Assembly (NCBI GenBank): GCA_944382965.1
Contig: CALWOA010000001.1
Location: 159,943-223,942 of the forward strand
Length of the DNA: 64,000 nucleotides
Reading direction: 5' to 3'
DNA from: an uncultured Oscillospiraceae bacterium
GTDB lineage: Bacteria > Bacillota > Clostridia > Oscillospirales > Oscillospiraceae
Part shown: positions 10,211 to 16,781 of the stretch, in pieces
Layout: the number at the start of each line of letters is the position of its first letter
Numbering within the stretch: the stretch's first letter is position 1
Translations under genes and position numbers: made by a program
Notes under the pieces: model-generated
What the model was told of the DNA's origin: nothing
Seen by the model: the letters and a program-made list of their open reading frames with translations, nothing else
The model's database searches: none

Positions 10211-10240
10211 AAAAAACGGGGAGGGTAATCCCTCCCCGTT
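10211..10240 (-). terminator. Terminator downstream of the C-terminal half-gene
   Basis: An 11-bp perfect GC-rich stem (10215-10225 with 10230-10240) is followed on the minus strand by six T. It lies just after the stop of the C-terminal half of the interrupted gene, where a full-length transcript would end. Confidence 0.9.
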
Positions 10241-10247
10241 GCGCTTG

Positions 10248-10631
10248 TCAGCAGGTTTGATAGCAATTATCCCCGTCGCGCTTGTCGTCGCAGCATCTGG
10301 GTGCGAACTGGGTGGCGGGGAAGGGAATCCGACTGAACATTTCGCAGGGATCTTCTCCGCTGCCGGGTGCCTCGCAGCATTCCTTGCAGGGAATGGCGTA
10401 GTCCAGAACCGGAACAATCAGTTGAGCTTCCCGCTCCAGCCGGACGATGGAGAATTGTCCCAGGGTAACAAAGAGCCGACGGCGGTCACCGGAGAGTACC
10501 AGCTCTTCGTCGAACTGTCCCCGAATTGCGGCGGGAACCTGGCAGGGGCAGTCGTTGCAGGTGCATTCGCAGATATCTTTGACTTTGGAGCTGAGTACCA
10601 TGGGGTCCAGTACCTCTACTGCCGCCACCAA
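10248..10631 (-). CDS. C-terminal half of an interrupted cysteine-rich conserved protein
   Basis: An open frame of 127 codons that reads directly out of the recombinase stop codon. It has no ribosome-binding site and only a TTG as first possible start, so it is probably not translated by itself. It is cysteine-rich (CECTCNDCPC, CKECC, RCCDD and a C-terminal NCYQTC). Its first residues (AAVEVLDPMVL) continue where the protein at 16204-16680 breaks off (TAVVEV). Joining the two at the shared 9-bp repeat gives an in-frame product of 274 residues. I recall full-length clostridial homologues of unknown function that carry both parts; this is memory, not a search. Function unknown; a spore-surface role is only a guess from the cysteine content and the skin-like arrangement. 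Confidence 0.75.
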   Translation of the reverse strand: MVAAVEVLDPMVLSSKVKDICECTCNDCPCQVPAAIRGQFDEELVLSGDRRRLFVTLGQFSIVRLEREAQLIVPVLDYAIPCKECCEAPGSGEDPCEMFSRIPFPATQFAPRCCDDKRDGDNCYQTC

Positions 10632-10640
10632 TTAGGCAGG
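10612..10640 (-). repeat. Attachment site at the recombinase end (core repeat plus element arm)
   Basis: On the minus strand, the element arm CCTGCCTAATTGGTGGCGGC is followed by the core AGTAGAGGT and then by the C-terminal half-gene. The recombinase stop codon TAA is inside the arm. The matching junction is at 16200-16228. Confidence 0.7.
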
Positions 10641-12119
10641 CGGAAGCTTTTTCAAAACAATTTTTACCTCCGCGTCTTTACTGACCGATATGTGATCCAG
10701 AATTTCCCGAAGATCTCGATTGGTAAACGACTGAAGATGTAAAAAGCGCTGAATTTCCTCCCGCAATCCCTGGGATGTGTCCAGCCTTTCCTGGAATTTC
10801 AGAGAAGGGGAGGGAAGCTGCTCGCTTTTTTGAGAGATTCGGCTTAGTTCCTGCTGTATGGGCAGCAGCTTTGCATTGAGTGCCTCCAGGGAGATCAGAC
10901 CGTTGACATATAGTTCCTGGTAGCGCTCCATTTTTGCCAGAAGTTTTTCCTGTTTCACTTGTTGGCGGATGTGGTGGTTTTCTGCTGGGACTGTCCGGGA
11001 AGAAAGCTGAGTTGGCACACGGGAAGCAAACTGCTCCGGATCGCCGATCTGAGAGAGAATGAAGCGGCTTAGCGTTTCCATTAGTTCCGCTTCGTCCAGG
11101 CTGACCCGGTTTTCGCATCTTTGGATGCCGTGCTGATCGTTGGTAACGCAGTGCCAATACACCCGGGTGTTGACATAGGTGTATGTTTTCCGGCAGAAGG
11201 AGCGGCCGCAGTGGGCGCATTGAATCAAGGTGGAAAACAGGTGTTTGCCGCTGTAACGTTCTGTCTTACCGGGCAATGGATCTGATTTCCTTCGCTCCTG
11301 TCGGAGCTGCTGGGCCTTCTGAAAGGTATCCGCTGTGACAATGGCCCATTCGGGCCGATTGTGGCAGAAATGATCTTCTTCCGGCAGTGTAATCTGTTTC
11401 CCGGTGAGAAAGTCCTGGACTTCATACTTGTGGTTGACCAAGGTGCCGCAATAGATGGGATTCAGGAGAACCCGGCGAACACCACGGGCATTCCAATTCC
11501 CGCCGAATTTTGTTTTGTCCCCGTTTTGGTTCAGAATCTGGCTGATGCATCGGCACCCCAGCCCTTGCCGGGTGTATAGAGAAAAGATCCTGCGTACCAC
11601 ATCCGCTTCGATGGGGTTGATTTCCAGTGTGAAATTGTCAATTCGATCATAGCCGAATAGCTCCCGGGGGACACGGCCTTTTTCTGCGTTGATTCGCTTG
11701 CCCCATTTGACACGCTTGGAAAGATTATTGCTCTCCTCCTGGGCCATGGCGCTGAACAGGGTCAGTACAAACTCGCTGTCTCCCATGGAATCCATATTCG
11801 CCGTTAAAAACAGGGTGCGAATCCCCAGGGCCTTCAGGGTCCGGATACTTTGCAGAGCATCCACAGTATTTCTGGCAAAGCGGCTGATGTCCTTCACCAC
11901 CACCATCTGAAAAGCGCCGGTTTCGGCGTCCCGCATCAGCTGCTGGAAGGCTTCCCGCCGTTTGACGGAAGTTCCGCTGATCCCTTCGTCAGCGTACAGC
12001 CGGTATAGTTCATGCCCATTTCGCTGGGCATAGGTCAGAAAGAATTCCTTTTGGTGGTTCAGACTATCGAGCTGTTCTTCTTTTTCCGTGGAAACCCGGC
12101 AGTAGGCGGCAATCTTCAT
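10632..12119 (-). CDS. Large serine recombinase of the intervening element
   Basis: A 495-residue site-specific recombinase predicted to excise or integrate the surrounding element. The resolvase domain starts at residue 3 with catalytic Ser10 in YCRVST. The DEGISGTSV, DISRFARNT and LTLFSAMAQEES blocks follow, then the recombinase domain (about 165-290), a zinc ribbon (CAHCGRSFC...C...C, about 298-340) and a coiled-coil C-terminus (about 375-470). Size and order match SpoIVCA/TnpX/phage large serine integrases. The start overlaps the stop of a 51-codon ORF (ATGA). Its end falls in the element's attachment arm, the usual place for an integrase next to its attP. Confidence 0.95.
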   Translation of the reverse strand: MKIAAYCRVSTEKEEQLDSLNHQKEFFLTYAQRNGHELYRLYADEGISGTSVKRREAFQQLMRDAETGAFQMVVVKDISRFARNTVDALQSIRTLKALGIRTLFLTANMDSMGDSEFVLTLFSAMAQEESNNLSKRVKWGKRINAEKGRVPRELFGYDRIDNFTLEINPIEADVVRRIFSLYTRQGLGCRCISQILNQNGDKTKFGGNWNARGVRRVLLNPIYCGTLVNHKYEVQDFLTGKQITLPEEDHFCHNRPEWAIVTADTFQKAQQLRQERRKSDPLPGKTERYSGKHLFSTLIQCAHCGRSFCRKTYTYVNTRVYWHCVTNDQHGIQRCENRVSLDEAELMETLSRFILSQIGDPEQFASRVPTQLSSRTVPAENHHIRQQVKQEKLLAKMERYQELYVNGLISLEALNAKLLPIQQELSRISQKSEQLPSPSLKFQERLDTSQGLREEIQRFLHLQSFTNRDLREILDHISVSKDAEVKIVLKKLPPA

Positions 12120-12271
12120 GGCTGGGCACTTCCTTCTGCGATGCCGGGTTCTAAGCTGTCCGGCATTTCGGTAATCTTTTCCAGCAGTAATTTTAGCAAA
12201 GCTTCTGTGAGGGCATCCGCTGTGTTGGGATTGACGATGGTATAAACTGGCTGAACAGACTTTTTTGCCAT
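12116..12271 (-). CDS. 51-residue protein coupled to the recombinase (candidate directionality factor)
   Basis: A short ORF starting MAKKSVQPVYTIVNPNTADA, with a good GGGAGGGATCATCT site and a stop overlapping the recombinase ATG (ATGA). A basic N-terminus is followed by a predicted helix (ALTEALLKLLLEKI) and an acidic tail. I recognise no family. Position and size recall small accessory proteins encoded beside serine recombinases; SprB, the excision factor of SprA, is similarly small. It could instead be a leader needed only for translational coupling. Its ribosome-binding site is part of an inverted repeat (12279-12330). Confidence 0.65.
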   Translation of the reverse strand: MAKKSVQPVYTIVNPNTADALTEALLKLLLEKITEMPDSLEPGIAEGSAQP

Positions 12272-12278
12272 AGATGAT

Positions 12279-12330
12279 CCCTCCCTGGCATAGTCTATTG
12301 ACGCAATCCCAGTGGCATTACCAGGGAGGG
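12279..12330 (-). promoter_or_regulatory. Inverted repeat that can sequester the ribosome-binding site
   Basis: CCAGGGAGGG at 12321-12330 and CCCTCCCTGG at 12279-12288 form perfect 10-bp arms 32 bases apart. In the minus-strand transcript the second arm is the Shine-Dalgarno of the 51-codon ORF, so pairing would block translation of it and, through coupling, of the recombinase. It could also be a DNA operator. Confidence 0.5.
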
Positions 12331-12486
12331 AGAAGAACTAAATGTGAACATTTTGTAAATTATTGTAAACAAGTGAAACATTCTGGTAGAAAAAATCGTC
12401 TATATAGTAAAGAAGATTTTGTACCGACACCCCTAGAAAAAGAAAAAAGGAGGACTTGGTCCTCTTCGGAAAGCTGTTGGATCGAT

Positions 12487-12909
12487 ATGAGTATGTTGGA
12501 TCGTGTAAAAAACATATGCGGAGCGGAAACGGCACTGGGCATCCGGTTTTGTTCCCCGGAAGCTGCCCGCTCTTACTTACCCCAGGGCAGCAGAATTTTC
12601 GGCGCGGCAGGGGAGAGCCTGTTCTTCTTTGCGGAAGGATATCAGGAGACGGTTTTCGCATTGGACAAGTACACCGGAGATATCCATCCCCTGGCCTACG
12701 ATTTTTCGGAATTTCTTCGCCTGATTTTGGCCTGCGGGTCAGCGGAATCCGTTGCCGGTACCGACCGGAAAGATTCCGCAGAATTGGAAACTCCCCAGCC
12801 GGGGCTGCGGGAGCTTCAGGAGGTTCTGAACCTGACCCCCATCCGAAATCCGGGAGAATATGTGCGTACCATTGGACAAGTGATTGACTGCAGCAGAATC
12901 CGGCAGTAA
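12487..12909 (+). CDS. Small protein, possibly SMI1/KNR4-like
   Basis: A 140-residue soluble protein starting MSMLDRVKNICGAETALG; an in-frame ATG 6 bases further is an alternative. The GESLFFFAEGYQETVFALDKYTGDIHPLAYDFSEFLRLIL stretch (shown in part: DIHPLAYDFSEFLRLIL) resembles the end of SMI1/KNR4 (SUKH) folds, found in immunity proteins and cell-wall regulators. The similarity is weak and judged by eye. The initiation region is unclear: the strongest purine-rich site (12448-12454) lies about 33 bases upstream and faces another frame. It lies inside the intervening element, upstream of and on the same strand as the next gene. Confidence 0.55.
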   Translation: MSMLDRVKNICGAETALGIRFCSPEAARSYLPQGSRIFGAAGESLFFFAEGYQETVFALDKYTGDIHPLAYDFSEFLRLILACGSAESVAGTDRKDSAELETPQPGLRELQEVLNLTPIRNPGEYVRTIGQVIDCSRIRQ

Positions 12910-12965
12910 TTTGTTTATCAAATCCAAACGGCGATGCAGCTGTGTGTTAAAGAGAGGTGTACCAT

Positions 12966-13394
12966 ATGAGCAGCTACATACTGATTGACACAACGGTAGA
13001 AGACAACACTTGGTGGAAAGATCTGATTCAGGCCTGTGCAGTTCTGGGGGATGTGTTCGAAATCCATTGCTGGTCTGACGAAAGTGATGCGGCAAAGCTT
13101 GCCCTGCGGTACGGGCGGAAGGTCGCCTCCACCTGGCGGGACGGAACGGTAATTCTGGGAACCATCACCAAAGAGTTCCTTTCCTATCTGACCCGGATGC
13201 CCAAACCCTCGGATACGGAAATCTATAACAAGATGACGCCGTTTTTCACCATCCGTCTGGGAGGCAGGCTCTACAGTGAGCATTACGGGACGGAAGTCAT
13301 CATTTCCAAGGTGCCGGAAAAGCAGGAACCCTGTGTTGACCGGATCTTAAGCAGGGTGGAGCGCTGCGGAACCGTCCATCGCAATGTCCAATAA
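12966..13394 (+). CDS. Conserved hypothetical protein
   Basis: A 142-residue soluble protein (MSSYILIDTTVEDNTWWKDL) with no family I can name and no signal peptide or membrane segment. The ATG at 12966 follows AGAGAGG by 8 bases. It is probably cotranscribed with the gene at 12487-12909 (56-base gap) and ends at a strong terminator. The two-gene set is the only plus-strand unit inside the intervening element. Confidence 0.6.
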   Translation: MSSYILIDTTVEDNTWWKDLIQACAVLGDVFEIHCWSDESDAAKLALRYGRKVASTWRDGTVILGTITKEFLSYLTRMPKPSDTEIYNKMTPFFTIRLGGRLYSEHYGTEVIISKVPEKQEPCVDRILSRVERCGTVHRNVQ

Positions 13395-13402
13395 CTGCCC
13401 AA

Positions 13403-13441
13403 ACGGCACACCGGAAAATGCTCCCGGTGTGCCGTGTTTTT
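13403..13441 (+). terminator. Terminator of the small plus-strand gene pair
   Basis: A 12-bp perfect stem (13403-13414 with 13424-13435) is followed by GTTTTTG. Confidence 0.85.
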
Positions 13442-13480
13442 GATATCCAACAATTTCAGATTTACCCGTTGATTCTCACA

Positions 13481-13512
13481 AGGAAATCCGGCACGCAAAA
13501 ACTGCGTGCCGG
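13481..13512 (-). terminator. Probable terminator of the sigma/anti-sigma/lipoprotein operon
   Basis: A 10-bp stem (13488-13497 with 13503-13512) lies just after the lipoprotein stop on the minus strand, but the T run is weak. Confidence 0.45.
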
Positions 13513-13527
13513 GCGTTTCTATGGGGT

Positions 13528-14520
13528 TTAGCGGAAGCATTCCAGTGTGCCGGTTTCCATGAGATAGGCAAAGAACAGATCATCGACGAAACCGTTTCGC
13601 TCTGTCCGGCAGGTAAATACCCAAGCCGGACGCAGATGGCAAATGTTGTCAATGTCAAATTCCGCAAAGTACTGAATGTCGACGCTGATGACCTCCATTG
13701 TTTTGTCATCGCCGTACATGCGGAAAAGAAAATCGGTCTTGAGCTTCTCCGCTGCTTCTTCCAGGGTGCAACTGGGGACGATGGGCTCCCGGCTGAGTTC
13801 CTTCAACAGGAAAGTCCCTTGGAAAGAAAACATCCCTTCTTCGGAAATATGAGCGGAAATACTGCGAAAGGGAACGTAACCAGTCACCGGCAATCCCTCA
13901 AAATAGGGTTGCAACTTTGCATAGTAAGCGCCTTTTCCGTCCTCAGTGACATTCGCTGTGACATTCCAGGGCGCAAGGGAAAAACAAGAATACCTTGCAA
14001 TTTCCTCTCCGGCAGCAGCCGCCGCCTCAGCGGCGGTAGTGGTGAGATCGCCGGGAATCTGATCGGTGATATATCCCTGCTCGAATGCGTGCCCTTCATC
14101 CAAATCCTTCCCATTCAAATCCCGGGTGACATCCAAATAGCGCCCGTCTCCTGTGATGTCCTGGGAGAAAGACAGGAAAAGCCGGTCTCCTTCTTGCTTC
14201 CACCAGTGCATTCTTCCGTCTTCCTGTACTCCCTTTTCTGCATCCGGGCAGGCGGAATAAATATAATCCTGCACAAATCGCTCCAGGGCTTCCTCATCCA
14301 GTGCCAGCTGGATGTGATACAGCGTTTCTGGTTCCGGCAGCTCCAGGGAGCCCTTCAGAATCAGGGTACGGCCTTCTTCCGTCACGGTTTGGGACAGTTC
14401 GGTTACGCTGCCGGCTTCCCAGAGGGCAGTCTGGGTGGGCTGGGTTTCTGCCTGGGGAGCGGCGCAGCCGGTCAGACAGAAAATGGCCAGCAGCAGAGCA
14501 AACCAATTTGTTTTTTTCAT
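13528..14520 (-). CDS. Exported lipoprotein of unknown function
   Basis: A 330-residue protein with a lipoprotein signal peptide (MKKTNWFALLLAIFCLTGCAA, shown as the LTGC lipobox with Cys near residue 19). Three in-frame ATGs lie at 14529, 14526 and 14520; the last has the best spacing from GGAGG. The mature part has no transmembrane segment and contains a repeated pattern of beta-strands; I cannot name the family. It is the third gene of a cluster with the ECF sigma factor and its probable anti-sigma factor (18-base gap), which suggests a surface protein under that sigma factor or a part of its signal sensing. Confidence 0.7.
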   Translation of the reverse strand: MKKTNWFALLLAIFCLTGCAAPQAETQPTQTALWEAGSVTELSQTVTEEGRTLILKGSLELPEPETLYHIQLALDEEALERFVQDYIYSACPDAEKGVQEDGRMHWWKQEGDRLFLSFSQDITGDGRYLDVTRDLNGKDLDEGHAFEQGYITDQIPGDLTTTAAEAAAAAGEEIARYSCFSLAPWNVTANVTEDGKGAYYAKLQPYFEGLPVTGYVPFRSISAHISEEGMFSFQGTFLLKELSREPIVPSCTLEEAAEKLKTDFLFRMYGDDKTMEVISVDIQYFAEFDIDNICHLRPAWVFTCRTERNGFVDDLFFAYLMETGTLECFR

Positions 14521-14538
14521 AATCATCATGCCTCCTTT

Positions 14539-15492
14539 TTACTTTGAAGAAGCATTCTGGACATTATCCAGCGTAAAGGACACAATCTGCTCCTGATCGG
14601 GGGCATAGGCTCTGTAGGCGTGTCCTTCCAGTTCCAGATACCAGTATTCAAATCCGGATCTTACCTTCAGTTCTACAGTAACAGAGGATTGGTTCTGTGC
14701 TGCTGCCGGTAGAGGATTCAGATAAAGGCAAGTTCCTGCTTCTGTCTGAATATCGGTCATTCCGATTGCGCCGGGATTGTCAGCCATGGCGGTGATGGTA
14801 TCTACCCCGTTAACCAGTACATGATCCCCCAGGTGAAGTTCTTGGGTGACCACGCAGACGTAGCCATTTTGCACAAGCAGCTGCCACATTTTCTCATAAG
14901 CTTCCGGGGACAGCATCTGCCGGAGTTCTCCTTCCATGGCCAGAGTATCCCGTTTCATGGAATGCTCTTGAACGTATTCCGGCAGGGGGCCGTACTGGGC
15001 TTCGTAGGTCTTTCGATCAATGCTGCCGGAAGACATCGAATTCGTACCTTTGAGCTGCCGCAGAAGAGCCTCGTCCACCTGATATCCCACCACCGGCTCC
15101 GGCAGTACTTCTTCCAGATTGTACCCCAGCAGAATGGTTTCTCCGTCATAGTAGCTCTGAGAGAGGACAAACTTGGATGCGTCCATCTTGGGCAGTTCCA
15201 CCACTTCCGGAATCTGGGTTTGACTTGCCTGCTCTGCCTGAGCGTATATGGTCTCCTGGGGGAACTGCTCCTTCAGCAGTTCAAAAATGGAAGGAACCCA
15301 TCCGGCAGCCACGGCGGTTACCGCCAGCAGGCTTACGCAAATTGCAGCCGCCAGGGCAACCACAATCGCCCTGCGCAGAGAACGGGTGTGTCCCGTGTCT
15401 TTCTGGCTCGTCTGCCGGGCCTGGCTGTCCACCAAATCCAGGAAACGATCGTCCACATATTCCATGGCGTCAAACAGCTTTTTGCTTCTCAT
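14539..15492 (-). CDS. Membrane-spanning anti-sigma factor (DUF4179-like)
   Basis: A 317-residue protein starting MRSKKLFDAMEYVDDRFLDLV; the start overlaps the sigma-factor stop (ATGA), so translation is coupled. A cytoplasmic N-terminus of about 42 residues, one membrane helix (about 43-66) and a long extracellular domain make the topology of anti-sigma factors that hold an ECF sigma factor at the membrane. No zinc-binding HxxxCxxC motif is seen, as in DUF4179-type proteins. A signal outside would release the sigma factor. Confidence 0.75.
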   Translation of the reverse strand: MRSKKLFDAMEYVDDRFLDLVDSQARQTSQKDTGHTRSLRRAIVVALAAAICVSLLAVTAVAAGWVPSIFELLKEQFPQETIYAQAEQASQTQIPEVVELPKMDASKFVLSQSYYDGETILLGYNLEEVLPEPVVGYQVDEALLRQLKGTNSMSSGSIDRKTYEAQYGPLPEYVQEHSMKRDTLAMEGELRQMLSPEAYEKMWQLLVQNGYVCVVTQELHLGDHVLVNGVDTITAMADNPGAIGMTDIQTEAGTCLYLNPLPAAAQNQSSVTVELKVRSGFEYWYLELEGHAYRAYAPDQEQIVSFTLDNVQNASSK

Positions 15493-16049
15493 AGTACCAC
15501 TCCTTCCTGCTGCAAATGGCTGCGCAGCTGCTGCCGCAGGCGGCTTAACCGGTATTTGACTTTGCGCTGGGGCAGATGATATCGCTGGCTGATGTCCGGA
15601 ACGGACATGGCGTAATAATACCGGCTCAGAAAAATGGCGCAGTCCTCCGCCGTCACACTCCCGAGAAACCGATTCAGGCTGACGCCGATTTGTTTTGCCT
15701 CCCACAGTTTCTCTGTATTGTTCCTTCTGTCCGGCAGACATTCATCCAATTCGGAAAACAGAACCGTCATATGGGGATTGCGCCGCTTTGCGGTATTGTA
15801 ATCCATCCGGTCATAGGATAGATTTCGGGTAATCCGGGACAGGAAATGCTTCAGCACATTCGGCTTGGTAGGCGGAATGGCGTTCCACGCTGCCCAGTAT
15901 GTATCGCCTACTACTTCTTCGGTATCTTCCTGGCAGTGCAGGATGTTAAATGCCACTTGGCTCAGGTAATGACCGTATTTCTTCTGTGTCTGCGCAATGG
16001 CGTCTTCACTGCGCTGAAAATACAGACGGACAATTTCGGTATCTTCCAC
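15489..16049 (-). CDS. ECF-type sigma-70 family RNA polymerase sigma factor
   Basis: A 186-residue sigma factor. GTG at 16049 is chosen because a GGAGG site lies 7 bases before it. Region 2 runs from about residue 8 to 75 (EDTEEVVGDTYWAAWNAI, FLSRITRNLSYDRMDY) and region 4 from about 120 to 180, with the DNA-reading helix in VPDISQRYHLPQRKVKYRLSRLRQQL. It should direct RNA polymerase to a small regulon. Its gene leads the operon with the anti-sigma and lipoprotein genes. The operon sits inside the intervening element, so it could be lost from a cell in which the element has been excised. Confidence 0.88.
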   Translation of the reverse strand: MEDTEIVRLYFQRSEDAIAQTQKKYGHYLSQVAFNILHCQEDTEEVVGDTYWAAWNAIPPTKPNVLKHFLSRITRNLSYDRMDYNTAKRRNPHMTVLFSELDECLPDRRNNTEKLWEAKQIGVSLNRFLGSVTAEDCAIFLSRYYYAMSVPDISQRYHLPQRKVKYRLSRLRQQLRSHLQQEGVVL

Positions 16050-16088
16050 TGTGACACCTCCTTTTGTTTTATAAGGCCTTACACCTAT

Positions 16089-16117
16089 ATAGTAGGAGAT
16101 TCCCGGGAAAAGGACAA
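16089..16117 (-). promoter_or_regulatory. Promoter of the ECF sigma operon
   Basis: On the minus strand, TTGTCC and TACTAT with a 17-base spacer, about 40 bases before the GTG. An autoregulated ECF-type promoter was not recognised. Confidence 0.5.
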
Positions 16118-16150
16118 GCTTCTGTAAAAAGCACACGCAATTTTTATCAC

Positions 16151-16181
16151 AAAAAAACGGAGCCACATCAAAATGGCTCCG
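16151..16181 (-). terminator. Terminator after the N-terminal half-gene, inside the element
   Basis: An 8-bp GC-rich stem (16158-16165 with 16174-16181) is followed on the minus strand by seven T. While the element is present it would stop transcription from the N-terminal half before the sigma operon. Confidence 0.8.
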
Positions 16182-16199
16182 GATAAGGGATCTATATAC

Positions 16200-16228
16200 C
16201 TGCCTATTTGTGGGCAATGACCTCTACT
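16200..16228 (-). repeat. Attachment site at the N-terminal-half end (core repeat plus element arm)
   Basis: On the minus strand, the N-terminal half-gene runs into the core AGTAGAGGT (16220-16228), then the element arm CATTGCCCACAAATAGGCAG. Its reverse complement matches the other element arm at 13 of the first 16 positions, starting with CCTGCCTA. Confidence 0.7.
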
Positions 16229-16680
16229 ACGGCAGTAGGCAGGTTGGCGCACAAACGGGTCACGCCGTCAGCCTCGCCGATGCGGGTATCGCTGCGGTAG
16301 ATGTGGGAGTGGCTGTCTTCGCCGCACAGAACGGCCCGCTTGGAGAACACGGCAAGACCGTACAGAGTGGCAGGACGGGAAACGCCTACCACGGCGTCTG
16401 CCAAAATCCGATAGTAGAACGTGATGTCGATGCAGTAATGGTTGCGGTTAAAGGCCAAAGGCTCTACATCAATGTAGGTGCACAGCAGTTCGGCGCAGCG
16501 CACCCGGGCGTTGGTGGCTTTGTCCAGAATGGCTTGGGAACTGGTGGTCAGATATACCCGAAGGTCTTCGATACAGTCCTTATCCCGACAGGAGTCGGTG
16601 ATCTTCCGTGTGTGGATGGACATTGCCTGGCGCAGATCCTGAGGATCACAGCACACAGTGTCCTTTTTTTGCTCTGACAT
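16204..16680 (-). CDS. N-terminal half of an interrupted conserved protein
   Basis: A 158-residue frame starting MSEQKKDTVCCDPQDLRQAM, with a good GGGAGGTAATTCCA site. The body (SCRDKDCIEDLRVYL, FNRNHYCIDITFYYRI, GLAVFSKRAVLCGE) is cytoplasmic-looking with several cysteines and no signal peptide. The reading frame follows the family up to TAVVEV and then continues only four codons (IAHK) of element DNA before a stop. The missing remainder is at 10248-10631 in the same orientation and phase. Removing 5,608 bp would produce a 274-residue protein. Whether the truncated form is functional is unknown. No confident sporulation-type promoter was found upstream; a TGCATA box near 16730 is suggestive only. 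Confidence 0.78.
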   Translation of the reverse strand: MSEQKKDTVCCDPQDLRQAMSIHTRKITDSCRDKDCIEDLRVYLTTSSQAILDKATNARVRCAELLCTYIDVEPLAFNRNHYCIDITFYYRILADAVVGVSRPATLYGLAVFSKRAVLCGEDSHSHIYRSDTRIGEADGVTRLCANLPTAVVEVIAHK

Positions 16681-16781
16681 TGGAATTACCTCCCGAATTG
16701 AGAATAAGCATAGCGCTTATAGGACAGTTTATGCAGAGATTTTCGGGAAGTGCAGACATTTCTGCGGGAGCTTCCGGACAG

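Follow-up and report, generated by a model that had tools for sequence, protein, structure and literature searches.

A serine recombinase element splits a conserved, undescribed gene of Oscillospirales that is probably rebuilt by excision during sporulation

The window analysed here, a stretch of 64,000 nucleotides from an uncultured Oscillospiraceae bacterium (contig CALWOA010000001.1), holds a conserved gene, hereafter the host gene, that is cut in two by a 5.6-kb element encoding a large serine recombinase. Splits of this gene occur in at least 21 of 342 genomes that hold its family, at three positions and by elements of two recombinase groups, which is a new observation; a literature search, with preprints and most subscription papers outside its scope, recognised no description of the host gene or of gene splitting in Oscillospirales. 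The skin element, a prophage-like serine recombinase element, splits the mother-cell gene sigK, and the first-pass annotation of the window had drawn an analogy with skin and SP-beta. This analogy gained support from selection on both halves, a mother-cell-type promoter, a link with spoIVA and palindromic attP junctions. With good confidence we regard the arrangement as a skin-like sporulation gene-intervening system at a previously undescribed target, excision and its timing being the parts that we infer.

The first-pass annotation had reported two minus-strand halves that contain the same 9 bases in the same codon phase, and all of this was recovered in the sequence (Table 1). The 9-bp core, AGTAGAGGT on the minus strand, occurs only twice in the 64 kb when both strands are scanned; the copies lie 5,608 bp apart and in phase, and deletion of 5,608 bp leaves a single 274-codon frame, whose product in the carrier would read ...TAVVEVLDPMVL... 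across the junction. The N half has its own start site, as claimed, with an ATG at 16680-16678 and GGGAGG upstream, and its unexcised frame reads past the junction to a TAG at 16206-16204, ending ...VIAHK. The C half, present once in the window genome (2.63 Mb, 60 contigs, 90.8% complete), begins at a TTG immediately 3' of the TAA that stops the recombinase (10634-10632) and is separated from the core by 11 bp, and it agrees with the earlier description in having no Shine-Dalgarno; the terminator predicted behind it folds well. The recombinase gene had been said to end inside the junction: it does end within a presumed attachment-site arm, but stops those 11 bp short of the 9-bp repeat itself.

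That a conserved gene is split was confirmed by alignment, as uninterrupted homologues of about 270-290 residues spanning both halves were found many times. An uninterrupted homologue is present in 31 of 36 further genomes of the genus (in G030 with a TGA close to the end), and the joined window protein aligns end to end with the intact homologues, which continue through the junction as ...PTAVVEVLDPMVL... The remaining five comprise G020 and G025, where the gene is split, G031 with the N half only, G016, where it reaches the contig end at residue 147, and G006, where two overlapping pieces probably reflect a frameshift. Judged from the sequences, the in-phase repeat exceeds chance, since intact relatives read through it and two more species share both the split and the element. 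The locus of the empty site is that of the window element, as 15 of 38 intact same-group loci keep the window order nrdD-galM-host gene; among the flanks examined, galM was found in 21 of the 38 and nrdD in 17. As Candidatus Faecousia loci match the window host protein at 64-65%, inside the same-genus range, the genus of the window is probably Faecousia (Oscillospiraceae), which has Faecousia intestinalis as its type species (PMC12056005).

The host gene family was found in 310 of 394 genomes drawn from the order Oscillospirales and in all 32 further same-genus genomes, which gives the combined sample of 426 genomes, 342 with the family. The host protein had no match in Pfam, NCBIfam (searched with the two halves) or PDB sequences. 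The AlphaFold model of the intact homologue in L083 is mostly beta (mean pLDDT 74), and a Foldseek search of this model against PDB returned no significant fold match. A suspected SPOCS/DUF3794 identity was unsupported by any match. Separately, a second host-gene fragment (residues 1-59) lies 6.5 kb from the intact copy in L039 (G014 C37:18897-19073).

Two further species carry the window's element at the same site. It lies on two contigs in G020 (90.6-91.5% DNA identity), and L120 (CALXDU010000003.1), a carrier outside the 21 genomes, holds it whole on one contig with 90.7% DNA identity over 16.5 kb. Between the window, G020 and L120, dS was 0.12-0.33 for most element genes, 0.33-0.47 for the recombinase and 0.03-0.16 for an open reading frame (ORF) of 51 aa; the flanking ABC ATPase gave 0.28-0.62, and galM and nrdD, compared only between window and L120, gave 0.31 and 0.33. 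This divergence of the element genes between species indicates that the split is old and that the element is no recent arrival. The dN/dS of the three species was 0.03, 0 and 0.04 for the N half (residues 80-155 only in the G020 comparison) and 0.030, 0.028 and 0.048 for the C half, with pooled nonsynonymous changes of 3/30, 2/31 and 3/22 against about 76% expected (P 1e-9 to 2e-16). Both halves are under strong purifying selection while split (dN/dS at most 0.05), the pattern sought for a gene whose rebuilt product is needed. Four intact same-genus pairs more than 85% alike gave 0.06-0.24, so that constraint on the split copies is no weaker. Three g25 species (G060, G160, G229), which belong to another genus, showed dN/dS of 0.02-0.07 in both halves at dS 0.56-1.09, and four g117 species 0.04-0.23 where dS was computable. 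The recombinases are also selected (0.08-0.26 where computable), and an ECF-type sigma factor and a 145-aa ORF of the element are strongly conserved (dN/dS at most 0.04).

The count of 21 split genes is a lower bound, made among the matches listed, with 26 chosen genomes re-read. Site A (the VVE codons, residue ~153) is used in 15 genomes. Both halves were found in G000, G020, G025, G060, G160, G229, G072, G245, G375, G218, G404 and G387, which, apart from G020 and G025, have them on a single contig, and one half only was found in G031, G283 and G084; in G084 the recombinase and the N half share a contig, 12.5 kb apart. Site B1 (~residue 72) is used in G037 and G215 and site B2 (~residue 77) in G071, G256, G352 and G415, with the halves on a common contig only in G071 and G037. 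Four further genomes with two matches (G197, G301, G069, G289) were read as intact or duplicated. In the recombinase tree the site-A enzymes fall together with a support of 88/75, which is under the usual threshold, and inside their group all family-f1 rows (99/97) and all g117 rows (100/100) stand together, and the site-B enzymes form a separate group (100/100). When 30 chosen genomes were searched, all 14 recombinase matches above 300 bits lay at a split host gene and the other 16 genomes had none above 223 bits; one match of 39% identity, in G381, lies away from the host gene. No stop precedes the junction in the 12 site-A genomes with both halves read, G160 having a TAG past it, and beyond the junction the N half has a short tail that varies with lineage. 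The recombinase does not adjoin the C half in G245 and in the site-B genomes G256, G415 and G037, is reversed in G025, and in all four g117 elements ends in the junction or continues out of frame into the C half.

The site-B halves of G037 (L040/L041, C2:78604-78756 and 96527-97123) are separated by 18 kb and oppositely oriented; both junctions have a 12-bp near-palindrome, TACATTGATGTA, so that recombination would rebuild the gene by inversion and not by excision. This arrangement could be a later rearrangement or a misassembly; the flanks of two intact relatives, used for checking the inversion, failed to map. Within the same family, what look like skin-type elements in sigK were also observed: the gene appears split at ~residue 65 in G160 (C102:81549-81728 and 136505-136984, 55 kb apart) and G229 (C81:112040-112234 and 74758-75255, 37 kb apart), with a serine recombinase beside the N part in each, and a serine recombinase adjoins a partial sigK in G031 (C69:3304-5339).

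Site-A elements are between ~1.47 kb (G375, G387) and 20 kb (G072) long, those of g25 measuring 3.8 kb and that of the window 5.6 kb, and the shortest are scarcely more than a Nudix-type gene, an assignment Pfam-checked in G404 only, and a recombinase of ~290 aa. Of 13 site-A elements, 9 have a predicted attP that forms a significant palindrome (P<0.05), the best being that of G072 (19/22 positions; 14/22 in the window), and G160, G245, G375 and G404 have none that is significant; the longest common junction stretch may be out of register in G060, G245, G375 and G387. A small ORF with a core like DPN...L..E/D-K was seen by eye 5' of the recombinase gene of the window trio and of G025, G060, G160, G229, G072 and G283, and none was seen in the g117 elements or G245. 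As cargo, the g25 elements carry nagB, which is the only nagB match in 3/3 g25 genomes (99-100% complete), and a candidate nagA read from the sequence; the G404 element holds the only pyruvate kinase match (L051:1975-3447) of a draft genome 94% complete, from which a second copy may be missing; and the cargo of G072 includes type IV pilus genes, pilB having a second copy elsewhere in that genome. As loss of sole-copy cargo would make excision costly in the germline and not in a terminal mother cell, the nagB and pyruvate kinase cargo argues for excision in a cell that would leave no descendants.

We compared the upstream regions of the host gene and its homologues. The pattern AC-N15-18-CATAnnnT with a T[AG] ending was found upstream of 50/52 homologues (shuffle expectation 0.6). 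The ending was chosen after viewing the window, and a second scoring that omits it found the pattern in 73/73 homologues (shuffle expectation 1.7), with a spacing of mostly 16; these 73 had 140 bp upstream, among 76 full-length proteins from 80 loci. The two sets come from different collections, probably share species and are not independent. The host promoter agrees with the sigma-K consensus, except that the base after the T is mostly G. Sigma-G, sigma-F and strict sigma-E patterns were found upstream of 0/52 host genes each, and a loose sigma-E pattern upstream of 3/52. Upstream of spoIVA, 0/20 were sigma-K-like and only 2/20 sigma-E-like, so that the sigma-E pattern is insensitive in this clade. 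Host gene and spoIVA were both present in 295 genomes and both absent from 25, with spoIVA only in 59 and the host gene only in 15 (odds ratio 8.3; Fisher P 2e-9, with no correction for phylogeny or genome completeness). In the window genome spoIVA is present, as are two sigma-E/K-type factors of nearly full length, both below the family's curated cut-off, which was reached in 0/14 control genomes. The sigma-K-type promoter (73/73) and the spoIVA association point to the host gene being a sporulation gene. Among the matches listed, six genomes have host gene and spoIVA at a distance of 2-9 kb: G315 C16, G053 C9, G095 C60, G177 C101, G125 C19 and G044 C1.

We propose that the element belongs to the sporulation gene-intervening elements, given a gene that is intact in relatives and a recombinase with a short direct repeat that restores the frame. 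An element without phage structural genes would interrupt a conserved mother-cell gene, leaving it split and silent during growth. Once sporulation is under way, the recombinase of the mother cell, probably aided by the 51-aa protein as directionality factor, would join the two junctions, releasing a circle and leaving the single gene for transcription by sigma-K RNA polymerase. The unexcised copy would stay in the spore, through which the element would be inherited. We infer that excision occurs, that it is confined to the mother cell, that the 51-aa protein takes part and that the rebuilt protein belongs to the spore.

Several observations weigh against this proposal. The dS of the host halves (0.10-0.25) and most element genes is lower than that of the flanks (0.28-0.62), possibly through exchange between species or codon constraint. 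The g25 recombinases (dS 1.8-2.8) are more diverged than their host halves, which speaks against simple vertical descent, and the elements may have been replaced in these species. The host gene is absent from the 59 spoIVA-bearing genomes and present in the 15 without a spoIVA match mentioned above, and as the protein has no named domain or fold, its spore role rests on promoter and co-occurrence. The positive control for sigma-K, yabG, was found in none of the 30 genomes searched, and no confirmed sigma-K target served as control. The sequence before the recombinase of the window shows no clear sporulation promoter; a sigma-E-like pattern, defined after viewing the sequences, precedes the recombinase in 5/14 site-A elements, against 0.8 expected and at most 4 in 500 shuffles. 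The window trio is not among these five, and the pattern was found in 0/5 site-B elements. Exact-pattern scans of IMG/VR with the joined attB and attP, a weak test, gave 0 and 0.

Some of these points would suit an ordinary integrative element that uses a conserved gene as attB, with the gene broken in carriers and excision, if any, serving transfer only. Such an element would be expected to have a serine recombinase, a palindromic attP and a fixed site; its empty site would be common, as it is in most same-genus relatives; its recombinase would be kin to phage integrases (568 phage records were matched by that of the window, all at <60% identity); and no sporulation promoter need precede it. 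We consider this unlikely, as the halves are under strong purifying selection in two separate carrier groups at dS up to ~1 and remain free of stops before the junction in the 12 site-A genomes with both halves read, all 14 recombinase matches above 300 bits in the 30 genomes searched lie at this one gene, and reduced elements of ~1.5 kb persist. Reversible phase variation or active lysogeny, with excision in growing cells in place of terminal mother-cell differentiation, appears very unlikely to us. Serine recombinases of this kind should integrate too, and empty sites are common. Excised yin of C. botulinum was detected at every time point (PMC10747680). Germline excision would nevertheless lose the sole nagB or the sole pyruvate kinase unless the circle were kept, and as the host promoter is of the sigma-K type, a rebuilt gene would be of use in the mother cell only. 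That the halves act as two polypeptides without excision, the C half being translated by coupling at the recombinase stop (TAATTG), draws on the TTG that follows this stop in the window and two sister species but is scarcely credible, as the reversed recombinase of G025 rules out coupling where the C half is conserved anyway, the g117 recombinases end in the junction or enter the C half out of frame, the N-half tails are short and lineage-specific, and the window C half lacks a Shine-Dalgarno.

Table 1. Positions in the window of the split host gene, its junctions and the genes of the element
Feature	Position	Strand	Remarks
Sigma-K-type promoter of host gene (putative)	16725..16751	-	AC-N16-CATAAACTG
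Host gene Shine-Dalgarno	16688..16694	-	GGGAGGT
Host gene N-terminal half through core repeat	16220..16680	-	codons 1 to 153/154
9-bp core repeat, N-half junction	16220..16228	not assigned	
Presumed attP arm AATAGGCAGG	16199..16208	-	element side, N-half junction
Cargo ORF, ECF-type sigma factor	15489..16058	-	
Cargo ORF, DUF4179-like	14539..15495	-	22.5 bits, below 30.1 cut-off
Cargo ORF, 333 aa	13528..14529	-	lipoprotein-like start (read from sequence)
Cargo ORF, 145 aa	12957..13394	+	no family match
Inverted repeat CTCCCTCCCTGG / CCAGGGAGGGATC	12276..12332	-	would pair Shine-Dalgarno of 51-aa ORF
51-aa ORF	12116..12271	-	overlaps recombinase start; similar ORF precedes most site-A recombinases (by eye)
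Large serine recombinase, 495 aa	10632..12119	-	Resolvase, Recombinase, Zn-ribbon domains
Presumed attP arm CCGCCTGCCTAATTGG	10628..10643	-	element side, C-half junction; overlaps recombinase 3' end
9-bp core repeat, C-half junction	10612..10620	not assigned	
Host gene C-terminal half, core repeat to stop	10248..10620	-	no own ribosome-binding site
Intrinsic terminator 3' of C half	10211..10240	-	fold -25.4 kcal/mol, z -5.0

The window recombinase matches the integrase family phrog_95 (E 1.3e-113), and its domain set together with the palindromic attP fits the large serine integrase family. Among the six element proteins compared with PHROGs, two had matches: the recombinase, to families of integrases, invertases and transposases, and one ORF, to a sigma-factor family. 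The remaining four had no PHROGs match, and with no phage structural or replication genes found the element was not classed as a prophage. The 51-aa ORF is a candidate directionality factor. The hairpin predicted over its Shine-Dalgarno has z -3.1 in the window and z -3.4 in L120; one pair is changed on both sides in G020, and the same pair is mismatched in L120. The DUF4179-like ORF may be anti-sigma-like, by its position. A 43%-identical recombinase was observed in a fecal scaffold deposited as phage, L225 (MT838016.1):2065-6398, beside genes that we take to be the sporulation genes yqfC/yqfD and ylbJ. The scaffold was considered as a possible excised circle and had no exact terminal repeat of more than 10 bases, and it was not among the matches listed when the phage collection was searched with the host protein.

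Taken further, we lean slightly towards the view that an undescribed mother-cell gene of Oscillospirales is a standing target of programmed splitting, inside which cargo is parked, and that the mother-cell genome is thereby trimmed. The parked cargo would consist of ordinary chromosomal genes (nagB, pyruvate kinase, pilus genes and the Nudix-type gene), with one recombinase group apparently dedicated to the split gene and sorting by host lineage. If true, sporulation in these gut bacteria trims the mother-cell genome, and some species discard sole central metabolic genes in the process. Recurrent splitting in a common gut order, with elements down to ~1.5 kb, makes the question of parasite versus useful switch testable by comparison, as carriers keep both halves under selection and sister species live without the element. 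The findings also point to an undescribed and widely conserved gene, likely in the Oscillospirales spore programme, and supply a set of recombinases with natural att sites.

The window element was compared with skin, SP-beta/spsM, gin, vfbin and yin. Its target, an undescribed gene with a sigma-K-type promoter, differs from the sigK target of the prophage-like skin. In the sources cited here, the sporulation gene-splitting elements named are few and come from Bacillus and some Clostridium-type species (PMC5595907, PMC10747680). The skin element is found in sigK of B. subtilis and C. difficile (PMC5025042), and that of C. difficile has a directionality factor of 53 aa (PMC10747680), similar in size to the 51-aa candidate of the window. 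SP-beta interrupts spsM, a late spore envelope gene rebuilt by excision in sporulation (PMC4191935); it is an active prophage, whereas the phage-type matches of the window element are integrase-type and sigma-factor only. The gin element lies in gerE of Bacillus cereus ATCC10987, where excision was shown by experiment to rebuild the sporulation gene (PMC5595907), while the window element is known from its sequence. Both have no phage genes, a serine recombinase (GirC in gin), a 9-bp junction consensus and an att-site inverted repeat, and gin needs a small extra factor, GirX, for which the 51-aa ORF is the candidate counterpart. Unlike the window element, gin has a transcription factor gene of Bacillus as host and carries three recombinase genes, and it is identical in a second strain, read by its authors as recent transfer (PMC5595907), whereas the window element differs by ~10% between species. 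The yin element in yabG of C. botulinum is likewise clostridial, with an att repeat and a serine recombinase of the same three Pfam domains; its target is sigma-K-regulated and its circle is excised (PMC10747680), and the window target has a sigma-K-type promoter. Yin is prophage-like and was called unique by its authors (PMC10747680), whereas splitting of the type seen in the window recurs over an order.

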